Made by a program: the position numbers and the translations under genes. Of a stretch of 51,086 nt of DNA, positions 31,808 to 51,041 are shown one piece after another. Every line of letters begins with the position of its first letter. Positions within the stretch are counted from its first letter, which is position 1. The notes below the pieces were generated by a model, which did no database searches, had not been told where the DNA came from, and saw nothing but the letters and a program-made list of their open reading frames with translations. This DNA comes from Nitrospira sp. (GTDB lineage Bacteria; Nitrospirota; Nitrospiria; Nitrospirales; Nitrospiraceae). The DNA is taken from positions 1 to 51,086 of the forward strand of contig JACOEH010000039.1 of assembly GCA_024998685.1 (NCBI GenBank), written 5' to 3'.

Positions 31808-31848
31808 AAAAAAACTCCTCCCCGACCAGATTGTGTCAGGCAGGAGTT
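31808..31848 (-). terminator. Riboswitch-controlled intrinsic terminator
   Basis: Read on the minus strand, a stem closes with AACTCCT (31842-31848) pairing with AGGAGTT (31813-31819), with inner GAC/GTC and CC/GG pairs. It is followed by a run of T (31808-31814). The 5-prime arm contains the ACTCC that the fluoride aptamer uses for its pseudoknot, so aptamer folding and terminator folding exclude each other. Fluoride binding would therefore prevent termination and switch the downstream genes on. Confidence 0.75.
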
Positions 31849-31900
31849 ATTATTCCCCTCCAGAGAGAGGACGGTTCTTGGTGAACTCCATCACCACGCC
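31839..31900 (-). promoter_or_regulatory. Fluoride riboswitch (crcB motif)
   Basis: On the minus strand the sequence reads GGTGATGGAGTTCACC (31895-31880), then AAGAACCG, a small hairpin CCTC-tctctg-GAGG (31870-31857), then AATAATAACTCCTGCC. This matches the fluoride riboswitch pattern recalled from the family: GGNGATGGNGTTCNCC, AACNG, a hairpin, and TGATNACTCCT. The GGAGT of the first loop can pair with ACTCC to form the pseudoknot. GGC at the 5-prime end and GCC at the 3-prime end could close the outer stem. A terminator follows directly. A promoter may lie just upstream (TTGGCG, 16 bases, TATTCT). The first gene downstream starts at 31636. No crcB or fluoride-type CLC gene is in the window. 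Confidence 0.85.
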
Positions 31901-31998
31901 AATTTATTTATAGAATAAAAGCAGCAAGTCTCGCGCCAAACAAAAAGCATGACGAAATAGGCCGATTCTCCTGCTCAAGCACGACAACTGAGCTTTTC

Positions 31999-32059: not shown

Positions 32060-32205
32060 ACCCTTTGCAGGGGATGGAGTCCCCCGTATAAGCGCTTGGC
32101 CAGGCTGATGACTCCTACGCTACTGCCGTAGCCGTAGGATTATCGTCGATCAGGTGGCGACCGGCTCAAAGCAGCATGCGCCTGGCCGGAACGGAGGACT
32201 CATCA

Positions 32206-41068: not shown

Positions 41069-42190
41069 CTACAGAGAAAACAGCTCAAGATCGAAGACCC
41101 GCTCGGTGAACCAGACGAGCGCGATGGCGATCACCGCCAGTGATCCGCCGGTGAGGACCAATCTCGGATAGGACCATGAGCGGCGAATCAGGTAAGCAAA
41201 AGGCAAGAATGCGCTGACAATGGCGAGTTGGCCGACTTCCACTCCCACGTTGAAGCTGACCAGGCTGAGCAACAATGAGTCATGAGGCAGCCCCAGATCG
41301 GCGAGCACTGACGCGAACCCGAATCCATGAATCAGGCCGAAGCCAAAGGCGATCATCCATCGACGATTCATCATAGCTGGATACAGATTGCCGACTGCCG
41401 CGAATATAACGGAAGCGGCGATCGTTGATTCCACCAATCGAGACGGTAGTCGGACGACATCCAAAGCAGCCAGACTCAACGTCAGAGAATGGGCAACGGT
41501 AAAGGCTGTCACGATGCTGACGACATTCCAGTACACTGACGAAAAATCACCAGCTGCCTGCCAGCGACCATCGACTCGGACCATGACTGCCGGAAGTAAG
41601 AGGGCAAGCAAGAACAGGACATGGTCAAACCCCAGCCAGATGTGCCAGATGCCCTCATGAATGAATTGCATACTCTCGGCCCAGCGTGATCGCTCGGCGC
41701 GCGAAAATTCCTGAGTGGGGGATTCCAGGCTGAAAATGGCAGTATTGGTTTGTCCGCCTTGAGTCAGACGCAAAAGCCCCTTATGCTGGGCATCGATGTC
41801 GAACAATAACTGATACTCCACACCGAGCCGTCCGATGGGTTCAATGCAATGGGCCTGAAAGCGTAGGACAGAATAGGCTCCATCTGTGTGATGGTCGATG
41901 AGCTGCTCTAGCGCCTGGGTCGTACAGACTTGGGTGCCAGCTGACAGTACGAGACGAGACAATGCGTAGGCACTGATCTCAGCATGCGCGTCACGGACTT
42001 CTCCCCAAGTGAGTTGGCCGTTGCCATCGCGATCCAATCCGATTGCATCGTCAAGGTCGCGCAGGGCGATGTCCCATTGCCCCTCGATGCGATCATTCTG
42101 AATCGTCAGTGAGAGATAACTGTCGCTGGGCTTATGGGCAAAAGCTGGAAGGCTGAGCAGAAGCCACGCGATAACGAGCAGCGTACGCAT
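41069..42190 (-). CDS. HupE/UreJ-family membrane protein with N-terminal exported domain
   Basis: This is a 373-residue protein. A signal peptide (about 1-18) and a periplasmic domain of about 160 residues contain an EF-hand-like loop DRDGNGQLTWGEV (about 53-65). Next comes the HupE/UreJ membrane domain with GIWHIWLGFDHVLFLLALLLP (about 178-198), AHSLTLSLAAL and GFGLIHGFGFASVLADLGL (about 283-301). The His/Asp-rich motifs in helices fit nickel or cobalt permeation, known for HupE and UreJ. It starts within the TPR gene's stop (TAATG). It is the last gene of the lipoprotein-DUF4331-TonB-TPR-HupE operon. Confidence 0.88.
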   Translation of the reverse strand: MRTLLVIAWLLLSLPAFAHKPSDSYLSLTIQNDRIEGQWDIALRDLDDAIGLDRDGNGQLTWGEVRDAHAEISAYALSRLVLSAGTQVCTTQALEQLIDHHTDGAYSVLRFQAHCIEPIGRLGVEYQLLFDIDAQHKGLLRLTQGGQTNTAIFSLESPTQEFSRAERSRWAESMQFIHEGIWHIWLGFDHVLFLLALLLPAVMVRVDGRWQAAGDFSSVYWNVVSIVTAFTVAHSLTLSLAALDVVRLPSRLVESTIAASVIFAAVGNLYPAMMNRRWMIAFGFGLIHGFGFASVLADLGLPHDSLLLSLVSFNVGVEVGQLAIVSAFLPFAYLIRRSWSYPRLVLTGGSLAVIAIALVWFTERVFDLELFSL

Positions 42191-43386
42191 TAGAATGTGG
42201 TCTCCTGAATCTGTTGCGCGAGTTGTCTCAGTCGAAAATCTTCAACATGGTTGATACTCAACCAATCGAGCACCGGCTGTGCGGCCGCTCGGTTCCCTTC
42301 GATGAGCGCGCATTCCAGGAGAATCCTGGCGTCCGCCGGTTCGCGTTGGACGTTCCAATTGGCTTGGGCTAACGGCAGCGCACGTCCAGCATCGTGCAAC
42401 AAGGCCAACGTGAATCGTGCTTCTTCTCTCACATGGACGATCGTTTCTCGCTGGCGGCCGGCGGCAAAGCGGGCTGCCAGTTCGGCTGTATGGTTCTGGA
42501 ATGCAGGCAGCTCCAACGCCTGTTCAGCGATGGCCAGGCGCAAGAACAGTCCATCGGCTCTCGTCTCGGATCGGAGTAGGGAGATGACGTCTTGATAACG
42601 GCGTTGATCCAGGAGGTAGTCAGCATAGGCGCTCAGTAAATATTGATCCTTGATGCCGACCTTGAAAGCTTCCGAGAACGACTGCTCAGCCTCTCGTACG
42701 GCTCCAGTGCGCGCGGCTGTCTCGGCCAGAATTGTCGTCAGCCAGATCCGCTCACGACCTGAGAGGCCAGGATTCGACAGTGCCGTCCGAAGTAACTCTT
42801 GGCTTTTCGTCGATTGACCAGTCAGGCCGCCGATATCGCTCAAGCATCCAAGCAGAACATGAGAGGCCGCTAATCGGGCAAGCCGCTGACAGGCCCGCCG
42901 TGCCTCATCGTAGCGTGCCTGTACCTGGAGGATCGATGCTTTGGTGAGCCATGCCTGCGCATTGGTCGGTTGTACGGCCAATACTTGATCGAGATCAGTC
43001 AGGGCTTGCTCAAATTCATGGGCATTTTGCCTGATCGTTGCGCGTAGGAAGAGAGTGGGAGGCGGGGGTGTCGGTTCGTTCCACCAAGGGGTGAGTATGG
43101 CTTGTGCCTGCCCAAGCAAACGAGGATCGCCTTCCGACCGACCTCGTTCGATGTAACGAGTGGCCAGCTTCACGGCTGTTTCGAGATGACGAGGGTTGTT
43201 TCGCAGGTCGGCTCGTAGGCTTTCGATTTCGCGTGCAGCAGGATCAGTCGTCTTGAAACTGAGCCGCTCAAGGACCTGGACATCATCTGTCGGTCGGTAG
43301 GGTTCAGGGTAAGCCGGAGGAACCTCGCTCATTATCGACCATCCGAGCACCATGAACGCTATGAGCGACCGTGATGGAATCATCAT
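42190..43386 (-). CDS. Exported tetratricopeptide-repeat protein
   Basis: This is a 398-residue protein with a signal peptide (about 1-25). Helical repeats then run over the length, the clearest being EFEQALTDLDQVLAVQPTNAQAWLTKASIL (about 122-151) and YDEARRACQRLARLAASHV. TPR proteins serve as protein-binding scaffolds. It lies 4 bases after the TonB gene and overlaps the HupE-like gene, so it is a member of a tight operon and may connect components of a transport complex in the periplasm. Confidence 0.8.
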   Translation of the reverse strand: MMIPSRSLIAFMVLGWSIMSEVPPAYPEPYRPTDDVQVLERLSFKTTDPAAREIESLRADLRNNPRHLETAVKLATRYIERGRSEGDPRLLGQAQAILTPWWNEPTPPPPTLFLRATIRQNAHEFEQALTDLDQVLAVQPTNAQAWLTKASILQVQARYDEARRACQRLARLAASHVLLGCLSDIGGLTGQSTKSQELLRTALSNPGLSGRERIWLTTILAETAARTGAVREAEQSFSEAFKVGIKDQYLLSAYADYLLDQRRYQDVISLLRSETRADGLFLRLAIAEQALELPAFQNHTAELAARFAAGRQRETIVHVREEARFTLALLHDAGRALPLAQANWNVQREPADARILLECALIEGNRAAAQPVLDWLSINHVEDFRLRQLAQQIQETTF

Positions 43387-43390
43387 TGAG

Positions 43391-44287
43391 CTATTCTCGT
43401 GAATAGGCGATGGGAATGTGCATGACGATGTGTTGCCGGTCCAATGTACGGTCGAACTGCATAGGAAAGGCCCGTTGCACGAGCGCTATCGCTTCCTGAT
43501 CGATGCGATCTAGACCGGAACTTTTCACCACTGCAGAATCCAGCAAGATTCCTTCCCTCGAAACCACGGCTTTGACCGTGACCTTGAGGGGGCGCGATTC
43601 ATCGAGTGACGGGCGAAAAGATCGCTTGAGCTCCTCAAGTCGGCGAGAAATCGCCTGCTGAAGCCAGCCGTAGTCTGGCCGTGATGTAGAAGCTGCTTCC
43701 GTGTCCAATACCGTGGTCGGTGGTAGCAATGGATGGGCGGGGTCCGCAGTCTTCATGTTTTCGCCGCTCGATGTGGCCGCGGCTGTTTGTGCTGTTGGTT
43801 CTGCTGTCGTTGAGTTGACCGGTCTATCAGCCTGTGGCAATGGATGGTCACTTGCCTGTGGCTGATTGGACATCGGCTTATCCGATATCGAAGCTGTGGT
43901 CGATTCCCTCGGTGAAGCGGCGGAGGAAGCAATGCTAGGTTGAGACGCTGGTGCAACCGGTTCCGCAGTCTGGTCGATCGGCACGATCCGTTCAGATGAA
44001 GTGACATGACGGGCTGTGCGAACCGCACGGGCAGGTATGGGCGTTCTCCCTTTGGGCTTCGATATGGCCGATTCGGTGGCATTGGTATTGTGAACCGACT
44101 CGTCGGCTGTTTGCGTCGATTGCACAAGTGCGACATCCCAGTGAAACGGTTCTTTGGAGACAGGGATGAGTGACTGACGGAAGAGCGAAAGGAAGCAGAG
44201 AAGTACAGACCCGTGGAGGGCGATTGAACTGAGCCATCCATGTAGGAGAGGGATTCGTGTTTCTTGCCTTGTCGTCTGCTGGTTCAC
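43391..44287 (-). CDS. tonB: TonB-family energy transducer
   Basis: The protein has about 298 residues. One N-terminal transmembrane helix (LSSIALHGSVLLCFLSLF) is followed by a long Pro/Ser/Thr/Gln-rich spanning segment. The C-terminal TonB domain (about 215-298) contains SREGILLDSAVVKSSGLDRIDQEAIALVQRA. It would carry proton-motive energy to a TonB-dependent receptor, plausibly the one at 48990. The start is probably GTG 44287 (aaggac upstream). The frame extends to 44332, but that part is a strong hairpin. ExbB and ExbD are not in the window. Confidence 0.85.
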   Translation of the reverse strand: MNQQTTRQETRIPLLHGWLSSIALHGSVLLCFLSLFRQSLIPVSKEPFHWDVALVQSTQTADESVHNTNATESAISKPKGRTPIPARAVRTARHVTSSERIVPIDQTAEPVAPASQPSIASSAASPRESTTASISDKPMSNQPQASDHPLPQADRPVNSTTAEPTAQTAAATSSGENMKTADPAHPLLPPTTVLDTEAASTSRPDYGWLQQAISRRLEELKRSFRPSLDESRPLKVTVKAVVSREGILLDSAVVKSSGLDRIDQEAIALVQRAFPMQFDRTLDRQHIVMHIPIAYSRE

Positions 44288-44306
44288 GTCCTTATCCTGT
44301 AATGAT

Positions 44307-44336
44307 GCGAGTGCCGCACCATCGTGCGGCACCCGC
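44307..44336. promoter_or_regulatory. Intercistronic hairpin between DUF4331 and TonB genes
   Basis: A perfect inverted repeat, gtgccgcac-catc-gtgcggcac (44311-44332), is extended by three further pairs after one mismatch. No T-run follows on the minus strand, so it is not a classic terminator. In a polycistronic RNA it would shield the DUF4331 part from decay or lower expression of the downstream genes. Confidence 0.55.
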
Positions 44337-47869: not shown

Positions 47870-48017
47870 TTGTTCGTGGGTTCAGTTTCTTCGTTTCCCG
47901 TAAATCCGATCATCGCCGAATTGCCGTAAGACGATTAGTGTGAGCCTCAACGTTGATTTTTGAGAAGTGTTGTGCTACCAAATTGAAGTTCGTGACACTC
48001 ATAAGAAGGTAAAGGGT

Positions 48018-48434
48018 ATGAAAAAGTTGGTGCGCTTCGGCGTGTCCCTCGACCATCATCTGTTGGACGCCTTCGATCGCCATATTGAACGGCGCAAGTA
48101 TACGAATCGCTCGGAAGCGTTGCGTGATCTCATCCGCAACAATTTAGTCGGTCAAGAATGGGATGAGAATAAGGAAACGGTCGGCACGATCACGTTCGTC
48201 TATGACCATCATGTGCGGGACTTGACCAGTAAATTGACGGATATTCAACACGACTACCATGCGCAAATTTTGTCGGGCATGCATGTGCATCTTGATCATG
48301 ACCATTGTCTTGAAGTGTTGGTGGTGAAAGGGAAGGGCTCTGAAATAAGAAAGGTCGCCGATGCTCTTGTGAGTGTGAAAGGCGTCAAGCACGGCAAATT
48401 GACCATGACTACGACCGGCAAAGGATTGGTGTAA
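48018..48434 (+). CDS. nikR: Nickel-responsive regulator NikR
   Basis: The protein has 138 residues from ATG 48018 (aaaggg upstream; frame extends to 47967). The N-terminal ribbon-helix-helix ([19 protein letters not shown], then [16 protein letters not shown]) binds DNA. The C-terminal ACT-like domain carries the nickel ligands H78, H89, H91 and C97 ([20 protein letters not shown]), which match E. coli H76, H87, H89 and C95. With nickel bound it represses or activates nickel transport genes. It lies upstream of the DUF3842 and TonB-receptor genes on one strand, and a dyad with NikR geometry precedes the receptor. Confidence 0.95.
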
Positions 48435-48438
48435 ACAC

Positions 48439-48864
48439 ATGCGCGTGTGTGTCATTGACGGGCGCGGTGGAGGATTGGGTTCCCGGCTGGTGTCGGGGTT
48501 GCGGGAATCCTTGCGCCTCGATTGCCAGATCTTGGCGTTGGGAACCAACCTTGCCGCAGCTGCGGCGATGAGGGAGGCCGGGGCTGAACAGGTCGCAGTA
48601 GGAGTCGAGGCGATCTCCAAACTGGTGCCGACGGCCGATGTCATTGTGGCCTCGTTGAACATGGTGTTGCCGGGTGCGATGTTGGGCGAAGTCACGCCGG
48701 AAGTAGCCAAAACGATTCTTGAGGCGAAGGCCAAGAAGGTGCTGTTGCCGCTGAATCGGGTCCGGGTGGAAATCGTAGGGACTGAAGGCCGCACGATGGA
48801 GACGTTGATTGACGAGTGCCTCTCACGCGTCCGTATTGCCATACAAGCAACCTGCCAAGCCTAA
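48439..48864 (+). CDS. DUF3842-family protein
   Basis: This 141-residue protein starts MRVCVIDGRGGGLGSRLV, the nucleotide-binding-like glycine motif of DUF3842. It continues with ILALGTNLAAAAAMREAGA and ADVIVASLNMVLPGAMLGEV. The family has no known function; the fold looks Rossmann-like. It begins 5 bases after the nikR stop, so the two are probably co-transcribed and it may be linked to nickel handling. Confidence 0.85.
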   Translation: MRVCVIDGRGGGLGSRLVSGLRESLRLDCQILALGTNLAAAAAMREAGAEQVAVGVEAISKLVPTADVIVASLNMVLPGAMLGEVTPEVAKTILEAKAKKVLLPLNRVRVEIVGTEGRTMETLIDECLSRVRIAIQATCQA

Positions 48865-48957
48865 CAACATTCCCATTTCGTTCTGAGTTGCGGGACCACG
48901 AGGGTCTGCGCCGGTCGATGAGTCGGCTGTCGAGAGATCATCGTGGGCGTCTCATCC

Positions 48958-48989
48958 GTCCACAACATTCATGACGAGGAATTGTGGAC
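48958..48989. promoter_or_regulatory. Perfect dyad before the TonB-receptor gene, candidate NikR operator
   Basis: GTCCACAA (48958-48965), 16 bases, TTGTGGAC (48982-48989): the arms are exact inverse complements and the right arm touches the ATG at 48990. NikR sites in E. coli are GTATGA-N16-TCATAC, the same inner spacing. The nikR gene lies one gene upstream. In RNA the same repeat would form a hairpin with the ribosome site (gagga) in the loop, so a translational role is also possible. Confidence 0.55.
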
Positions 48990-51041
48990 ATGACACGCGC
49001 CATGACATTTGTACTGGTTCTTACGGTCGCACTCAGCTTTGGGGAAAATGTCCAGGCCCATGACCCGGACGAACCTGTCCTGGAAGTGCCGGAAGTCGCG
49101 GTCATCGGTGAAAAACCGGTGGCGGCCTCCTCTCAACAATTCATTCCGGACAAGGAAATTGTGCTCCAGCCCCAGGGGAGACCGGCTCAAGTCCTTCGCT
49201 TGATTCCAGGTATGGTGGCGGTTGAGCATTCCGGAGGAGCAGGAAAGGCCGACCAATATTTCCTGCGCGGCTTTGATGCCGATCATGGAACGGATGTCGC
49301 CTTCTTCACGGACGGGATGCCGATCAATCTGCGGACCCATGCGCATGGGCAAGGGTATGCCGATTTGAACTTCATCATTCCTGAGACGATTGAAGGCGTC
49401 GAGGCCTCCAAAGGTGCCTATCTCCCGGAGATCGGAGATTTTGCGACGGCAGGGGCGATCAATTTCAAGACCAGGCAAGTCGTGCAAGAAGGGATTGCGC
49501 AGGCGACCGGCGGGCAGTTCGACACGCAGCGGTATCTTTTGATGTTCTCGCCTACCAAAGATAGAGTCCGTACCTTGGTCGCTATGGAAAACTATTACAC
49601 CAACGGTCCGTTTGAACACCATAATCGATACCTGCGGACCAATTTACTAGGCAGGCTTACGACCAGCTTTACGGGAAGAGACGAATTCAGTGTGAAGGCG
49701 ACCTTCAACAAATCCAAATGGAACGGCTCGGGGGAAATCCCGCTGCGCGCCGTGGAAGAAGGGATCATAGGTCGCTTCGGGTCGATCGATCCGACGGAAG
49801 GAGGATCGACGCTCCGGGCGACCGGCGTCATGAACTATCACTACGACACGACGACCAACGGTCAGTTCTTTGCCGATGCGTACGGGCAGTACTATCGGCT
49901 GGACCTGTTCACGAATTTTACATTTTTCCTCAATGATCCCGTCAACGGTGACGGCATTCAGCAAGCCGATCGACGGGTCATGTACGGCGGCGATATCGGA
50001 TACAAGCAGCGTTGGGAATTTTTGGGAATGCCGACCATTGGAACGGTGGGAGTTCAAGCCCGAGTGGATGACATCCATCCAAGGCTGGGGACGCAAACGA
50101 AACGGGCAGGGACCGGCACGACGGTCTACAGCGATGTGCTGTCCGCTTCCTATGCGCCCTATATCAAAGGCGAGGTGCAGCCTGCTTCGTGGGTTCGATT
50201 CGTCGGCGGGTTGCGGTGGGAAACGTTTACGTTCGATGTGCGCAATCTGTGCGCGACCTGCACGTTGCGGCCGGAGGGACACACCAGTTCCGGCATTCTC
50301 TTGCCCAAGATGAGCATGATCGTGGGCCCTTGGGGCAAAACCGAATTGTTCGTCAACTACGGAGAAGGCTTCCACAGCAATGATGCGCGATCGGCGGTGC
50401 AGATCGGGTCGGCTCCGCTCGCTCGATCCAGGAGCTACGAGGTGGGGCTCCGATCGAAACCCTGGGGACCTGAGGGGCTCGAATTGACTGTCACGGCATG
50501 GCGCATCGATCTTCAGTCCGAGCTGGTGTTCGTGGGCGACGAAGGCACGACGGAGAGTCGTGGACCAAGCAGACGACAGGGTTTTGAAGTGGCTGCACGC
50601 GGCCAGGTATGGGGGCCGCTGTATGTGAACGGCAGTTTCACCTGGACGCAGGCCAAATTCCGCAACGGCGATGCGATCCCATTAGCCCCGGAGTTCACGG
50701 CCTATGGAGCGGCGATTCTGAGATGGCCCGAAGGAATGACGTCTCAGCTGCAAGCCACCTATCTCGGAGTTCGACCCCTCACCGAGGATCGGAGCTTCAA
50801 GTCACCTTCGTGGATCGTCTTCGATTGGACGCAACGGTATCAATTGCCGATCAAGTTGCCCTATGGTCGCTTGGAAGCGTTTTATTTCGTTCAAAATCTG
50901 TTCAACACGGACTGGGAGCAAGCGATCTTTGCGTTCGAATCAAGGCTACAGACTGAACCGGCCGCCGTGAACGGCATCCATTTCGTACCAGGAAACCCAC
51001 GTACATTCATGGGAGGGGTTGCCTGGCATTTTTCAACCTGA
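48990..51041 (+). CDS. TonB-dependent outer-membrane receptor
   Basis: The protein has 683 residues from ATG 48990 (gagga nine bases upstream; GTG 48984 is worse). Signal peptide about 1-23 (MTFVLVLTVALSFGENVQA). Plug domain about 45-165: RPAQVLRLIPGMVAVEHSGG, YFLRGFDADHGTDVAFFTDG, then VEASKGAYLPEIGDFATAGAINFK. The 22-strand barrel follows, ending with aromatic WHFST, the usual terminal strand. It would bring a scarce ligand across the outer membrane using TonB. The upstream nikR and dyad suggest a nickel chelate or another metal complex, which is inference. The TonB at 43391 may power it. Confidence 0.92.
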   Translation: MTRAMTFVLVLTVALSFGENVQAHDPDEPVLEVPEVAVIGEKPVAASSQQFIPDKEIVLQPQGRPAQVLRLIPGMVAVEHSGGAGKADQYFLRGFDADHGTDVAFFTDGMPINLRTHAHGQGYADLNFIIPETIEGVEASKGAYLPEIGDFATAGAINFKTRQVVQEGIAQATGGQFDTQRYLLMFSPTKDRVRTLVAMENYYTNGPFEHHNRYLRTNLLGRLTTSFTGRDEFSVKATFNKSKWNGSGEIPLRAVEEGIIGRFGSIDPTEGGSTLRATGVMNYHYDTTTNGQFFADAYGQYYRLDLFTNFTFFLNDPVNGDGIQQADRRVMYGGDIGYKQRWEFLGMPTIGTVGVQARVDDIHPRLGTQTKRAGTGTTVYSDVLSASYAPYIKGEVQPASWVRFVGGLRWETFTFDVRNLCATCTLRPEGHTSSGILLPKMSMIVGPWGKTELFVNYGEGFHSNDARSAVQIGSAPLARSRSYEVGLRSKPWGPEGLELTVTAWRIDLQSELVFVGDEGTTESRGPSRRQGFEVAARGQVWGPLYVNGSFTWTQAKFRNGDAIPLAPEFTAYGAAILRWPEGMTSQLQATYLGVRPLTEDRSFKSPSWIVFDWTQRYQLPIKLPYGRLEAFYFVQNLFNTDWEQAIFAFESRLQTEPAAVNGIHFVPGNPRTFMGGVAWHFST

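Follow-up and report, generated by a model that had tools for sequence, protein, structure and literature searches.

The 3' end of the window, by which we mean the whole 51,086-nucleotide stretch of Nitrospira sp. contig JACOEH010000039.1 that was analysed, carries, in this order, genes for an ECF sigma factor, a ChrR-type cupin protein, NikR, a DUF3842 protein and a TonB-dependent receptor. On the forward strand, nikR (48018-48434) is recognised by the Pfam domains NikR_C (1.3e-34) and RHH_1 and by the NCBIfam NikR equivalog model (4.2e-62), the DUF3842 gene (48439-48864) by Pfam PF12953 (3.4e-40), and the receptor gene (48984-51041) by the Pfam families TonB_dep_Rec_b-barrel (1.6e-28) and Plug (6.2e-14), its start being either GTG 48984 or ATG 48990. 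The substrate of the receptor is probably nickel, and its 80 relatives come almost all from Nitrospira or from Nitrospiraceae/Nitrospirae/Nitrospirota. DUF3842, which accompanies both nikR and the RNA described below, was mentioned nowhere in our literature search. Near this operon, on the opposite strand (41069-44332), lie genes for a HupE/UreJ-like protein, a TPR protein and a weakly TonB-like protein, which possibly belong to the same metal uptake system. The window also holds two divergent Rfam fluoride riboswitches about 160 nt apart, at 31834-31904 on the reverse strand and 32061-32124 on the forward strand (43.6 and 45.9 bits).

At the head of the receptor gene, positions 48958-48989 read GTCCACAACATTCATGACGAGGAATTGTGGAC, a perfect 8-16-8 dyad (GTCCACAA-N16-TTGTGGAC) whose description in an earlier note holds: both arms are perfect, it ends one base ahead of ATG 48990, it encloses the ribosome-binding site (a Shine-Dalgarno-like GAGGA in its loop at 48976-48980, kept in position in near relatives), and it stands one gene after nikR, the DUF3842 gene intervening. 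Its left arm (48958-48965) consists of the 3' strand of a hairpin, hairpin 3 below, plus two bases; its right arm (48982-48989) is the start-codon segment and includes GTG 48984-48986, in frame with the receptor. As bare DNA the dyad is unremarkable. No second perfect 8-16-8 repeat occurs in the window, but order-1 simulations with the same dinucleotide make-up yield on average 1.0 per 51-kb window, and perfect 8-bp inverted repeats with spacers of 4-24 number 31 in the window, so that symmetry alone is weak evidence.

Upstream of nikR the situation is different in kind. A 7-13-7 site at 47972-47998, GTGCTAC-N13-GTGACAC, follows the pattern GTGYTAC-N13-GTRNYAC close ahead of the gene and is conserved in relatives, 73 of whose 75 nikR loci carry GTGCTAC-N13-GTRNYAC. 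A weight matrix built from 68 distinct sites of relatives, the window's own excluded, gives it 28.4 bits, the next-best place in the window reaching 5.3, and GTGNYAC-N13-GTRNYAC has this single match in the 4.8 Mb genome. In length, spacing and half-site it agrees with the published delta-proteobacterial NikR consensus GTGTTAC-[N13/14]-GTAACAC (Geobacter, Desulfovibrio; PMC545781), from which the dyad before the receptor differs in half-site, in its 24 bp centre spacing and in not lying at nikR. By pattern and conservation, 47972-47998 is the predicted operator for NikR, which, acting there, would control transcription of the operon. The weaker dyad that had been proposed before nikR (47967-47998) thus does contain this predicted NikR site, but its register was off, and just 5 of its 8 arm positions match.

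The same measures bear on the idea that the dyad at the receptor is a DNA operator, for NikR or for another repressor, giving the receptor a transcriptional control of its own. Its perfect symmetry and its place within a NikR operon speak for this reading, but in the receptor leader the best placement of the NikR matrix scores -22 bits, compared with 28.4 for the site before nikR, and 938 places in the window score above it; the genome's single NikR pattern precedes nikR; the dyad sequence, allowing up to 3 mismatches, occurs 15 times in the genome compared with 14 for its reversed control; and conservation in this region follows RNA pairing, G-U pairs included. The N16 likeness to classical NikR sites proved superficial: from centre to centre the half-sites of the dyad are separated by 24 bp, those of the Nitrospira NikR site by 20 bp and those of GTATGA-N16-TCATAC by about 22 bp. 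On these scores the dyad is no NikR binding site, and an operator of any sort is highly improbable. Between the two roles first envisaged for the dyad, operator or RNA hairpin, the matrix values tell against the former, while the latter fares better; one dyad arm belongs to a larger conserved RNA.

This RNA, located between DUF3842 and the receptor, has a core of about 75 nt (48891-48964, forward strand; 90.7 bits with our model R1) that is represented by models R1 and R2 and supported by an alignment of 33 loci showing covariation. It comprises three hairpins. Hairpin 1 (48893-48907, GGACC-ACGAG-GGUCU) is paired in 99.4% of the cells of the 33-locus alignment and in 99.2% of those of a second alignment of 53 sequences fitted to the RNA model, and its loop, ACGAR, is near-invariant. 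Hairpin 2 (48912-48929, CGGUC-GAUGAGUC-GGCUG) displays compensatory changes at 3 of its 5 pairs over the 33 loci and at 4 of 5 over the 53 sequences, and hairpin 3 (48943-48963, GUGGGCG-UCUCAUC-CGUCCAC) at 3 of 7 and 5 of 7 pairs, respectively. Loops 2 (GAUGAG, 48917-48922) and 3 (CUCAUC, 48951-48956) would form a kissing contact, with 92% of cells paired and two pairs changed on both sides; inspection by eye of the 33-locus alignment revealed co-varying loops in the N. defluvii group (GCUAGG/CCUAGUU in L063, GGCAAG/CUUGUC in L066), and the contact is absent from the g7 leaders and from L140. Kissing pairs included, the 33-locus alignment has 94.7% of its cells in standard pairs and 8 pairs changed on both sides, a result equalled by none of 500 shuffles, partners slid out of register pairing in 35-49% of cells; the figures for the 53 sequences are 95.8% and 9 pairs. 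A permutation of loop-loop partners returned p = 0.01 with an automatic loop finder that cut into the stems, and we relied on the 33-locus covariation instead. G-U cells are common in the helices, a sign that it is the forward-strand RNA that folds. Besides the ACGAR loop there are few conserved unpaired positions, an uncommon trait in an aptamer for a small molecule.

None of the 4227 Rfam covariance models matched the element at gathering score, two snoRNA fragments far below it being chance hits, in a scan that did detect the two fluoride riboswitches of the window; a known Rfam family is thereby rejected. No paper describing the RNA of 48891-48964 was found in the literature search. With model R1 the RNA is single copy in this genome, which excludes a dispersed repeat or mobile element. 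Comparison points firmly to a conserved structured RNA upstream of the receptor that is absent from the RNA catalogue searched.

Within the phylum, model R1 found the RNA in 23 of 198 genomes, every confident match being in the same family and after nikR-DUF3842, and model R2, run over 395 phylum genomes, left this picture unchanged. Among cultured Nitrospira, N. defluvii carries the RNA (L059). A search within the family gave matches in 78 of 175 genomes at E <= 0.02, the weakest of which were not near a receptor and were set aside. Weak model matches in coding regions (L113, L114, L116-L118, L152, L153, L158, L160-L164, L177 and L178), with no receptor nearby, were likewise discarded as chance. 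Receptor loci in relatives are of two kinds, nikR-DUF3842-RNA-receptor or nikR with the receptor as its immediate neighbour, nearly always at a distance of roughly 9-47 nt, and both kinds occur together in the assemblies LNDU01 (L015, L027) and VOPR01 (L063, L070). The upstream region could be read at 77 receptor loci, and the RNA precedes the receptor in all 30 where DUF3842 is the gene next to it, in none of the 44 where nikR takes that place and in 2 of the 3 others.

Several exceptional loci are informative. In L027/L165 the RNA and receptor are located away from nikR and DUF3842. In L009/L139, which cover the same genome region, the order is DUF3842-RNA-receptor-DUF4198-RNA-receptor, so that a single operon contains the RNA twice, the two receptors being 26% alike and the first only 26% identical to that of the window; L140 has nikR-DUF3842-RNA-receptor with a receptor 28% identical to the window's. 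The presence of the RNA before such unrelated receptors implies that it tracks TonB receptor leaders and not one gene family. A diverged copy was also seen in L151, near 1873-1990 on the reverse strand, before a receptor 53% identical to the window's and in a stretch without nikR or DUF3842. As expected of a cis-regulatory RNA, the element combines a compensatory structure with a fixed leader position before one type of gene, unrelated TonB receptors included.

Two readings that deny the block a regulatory fold are weighed by the same comparison. It might be a passive intercistronic element that separates DUF3842 from the receptor and serves for processing or as a stabilising structure, in keeping with its invariable place in an operon leader and its absence where nikR directly precedes the receptor. 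However, a passive stem is not expected to have two conserved exclusive pairings, such as those set out below, and the RNA stands before a receptor distant from DUF3842 and nikR in L027/L165 and in two copies in L139, which makes this reading quite improbable. Least probable of all the readings weighed here is an upstream reading frame, MSRLSRDHRGRLIRPQHS, encoding a leader peptide. Many leaders within the clade of the window have this frame open and in similar form, but it is broken by frameshifts in L150 and L166, stops after 2-5 codons in L149, L124 and L173, and lacks a start in L106, the N. defluvii group, the g7 leaders, L140 and L151, the RNA helices persisting throughout. These breaks in the frame spare the RNA, which excludes a leader peptide as the conserved feature.

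The same RNA can adopt a second pairing. A long helix, P1, joins CCACGAGGGUCU (48896-48907) to AGAUCAUCGUGG (48935-48946) by 11 bp with one G.A; it is incompatible with hairpin 1 and consumes 4 of the 7 bases of the 5' strand of hairpin 3, so that its formation would free the left arm of the dyad. Over the 33 loci 92.6% of P1 cells are paired, compared with 34-51% when the partners are slid, and one pair is compensatory. Against shuffled linkers the mean z is -2.16 over 50 leaders, with p < 0.05 in 66% of them, and in divergent leaders the helix is near or fully perfect, with 11 bp in L111, 12 bp in L143 and 13 bp in L112 and L140. A switch requires just such a set of two conserved pairings that exclude each other. 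In single-sequence folding the combination of P1 and the dyad reaches -30.8 kcal/mol versus -21.0 for the three hairpins, with a dyad helix probability of 0.95; these programs cannot score the kissing contact, and the lead of about 10 kcal/mol for the dyad fold is computed without it. A CCACGA/UUGUGG helix before the start, considered as a general partner, was rejected, its covariation being no better than in shuffles.

We consider that the dyad is probably the start-covering helix of a translational RNA switch in the receptor leader of the nikR-DUF3842-receptor operon of Nitrospiraceae, a reading derived from sequence comparison. Across 54 non-redundant leaders the 3' strand of hairpin 3 pairs with its own downstream segment at -8.81 kcal/mol, against -7.94 (sd 0.26) with swapped partners (p = 0.0006, a permutation value that is optimistic for leaders related to one another). 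The pairing is also rebuilt with different sequence, as GACCCACC/GGTGGGTC in L140, GCCCAC/GTGGGT in L149, CGTCCAC/GTGGGCG in L102 and TCCATA/TATGGA in L099, and in the N. defluvii group there is apparently another partner, CAGATCACG with CGTGATCTG, 3' of hairpin 3. The strict dyad columns are paired in 71.9% of cells over 24 leaders, where pairs changed on both sides are no more frequent than in shuffles, and a good start-covering hairpin is missing in several leaders (L047-L050, L083). With respect to conservation in close relatives of the same gene order, on which the earlier note had staked its proposal, the outcome is split: the perfect form is confined to the nearest species and L166, but the potential to pair comes back in leaders with other sequences. 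Of the elements of a riboswitch, namely exclusive folds one of which covers the ribosome-binding site, P1 is thus supported and the start-covering helix is supported in part.

These mixed data leave room for a genuine cis-acting RNA in which the dyad is incidental and regulation depends on some protein or small RNA that recognises either the ACGAR loop or the kissing complex. The perfect 8-bp form is limited to the nearest species and L166, mismatches occur in L006, L008 and L027, about one such repeat is expected per window, and the arms are constrained otherwise, the left as the 3' strand of hairpin 3 and the right as the start region (GTG GAC ATG). Against this alternative, which we regard as unlikely though by no means remote, stand the complementarity above swapped partners in the 54 leaders, the pairings rebuilt in L140, L149, L102 and L099, and the negative folding z-scores of near-clade leaders.

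The right arm also bears on where translation begins. In the leaders of L027/L165, L124 and L139/L009 the codon aligned to ATG 48990 is not ATG, which makes the codon in the arm the closest start in frame, whereas L006/L123 have GCG at the arm position and would use the ATG. The true start of the receptor may accordingly be GTG 48984, inside the dyad.

In the switch that we favour, fold one would consist of all three hairpins, the loops of the second and third kissing; CGUCCAC would be bound up in hairpin 3 and the start region left open. In fold two, CCACGAGGGUCU would pair with AGAUCAUCGUGG and use up the 5' strand of hairpin 3, and the freed GUCCACAA would pair with UUGUGGAC across the Shine-Dalgarno sequence and the start codon, lowering translation. 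The RNA would then act as a translational layer for the receptor alone, on top of the transcriptional control predicted for NikR. What comparison establishes is the RNA with its helices, the long helix that excludes some of them and the gene context; from these we infer that the two folds exchange in the cell, that OFF corresponds to the dyad fold and that some signal or ligand shifts the balance. Our likeliest guess from context for the signal is nickel or a nickel complex, only because nikR is nearby and, in L009, a gene for DUF4198, which we take to be a family including nickel/cobalt transport components. The partner may instead be a protein or small RNA, since conserved unpaired bases are few. 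It is tempting to speculate on a new riboswitch class confined to Nitrospiraceae, a kissing-loop sensor of nickel (or a nickel/cobalt complex) controlling translation of an outer-membrane metal receptor, although we hold this to be rather doubtful.

Known systems offer partial parallels. The NiCo (czcD) riboswitch (RF02683) is likewise a metal-linked cis-regulatory RNA, and the ligand would be shared if the window RNA senses nickel; its architecture is a four-way junction, whereas the window RNA has three hairpins with kissing loops and no Rfam match at the thresholds used. Purine-type riboswitches also have two hairpins joined loop to loop, together with a competing helix in which the 5' strand takes part, but the window RNA shares neither sequence or Rfam match nor the conserved three-way junction core with them, and its kissing contact is lost in the g7 leaders and L140. 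Cobalamin riboswitches of the BtuB type are leader RNAs with kissing loops and translational control of a TonB receptor, as is predicted here, but the window RNA is much smaller, has no cobalamin-family match and lies in a nikR gene context.

Nitrospira are dominant nitrite oxidisers, among them comammox bacteria, of which some depend on nickel enzymes such as urease. With an uncatalogued RNA guarding what is probably a nickel receptor, metal uptake in these organisms would gain a further level of regulation and, should a nickel riboswitch prove true, one operon would possess two nickel sensors, NikR on DNA and the RNA on the receptor message. Few genetic tools exist for this group. The RNA would offer an orphan riboswitch candidate that can be tested and whose gene context is clear.
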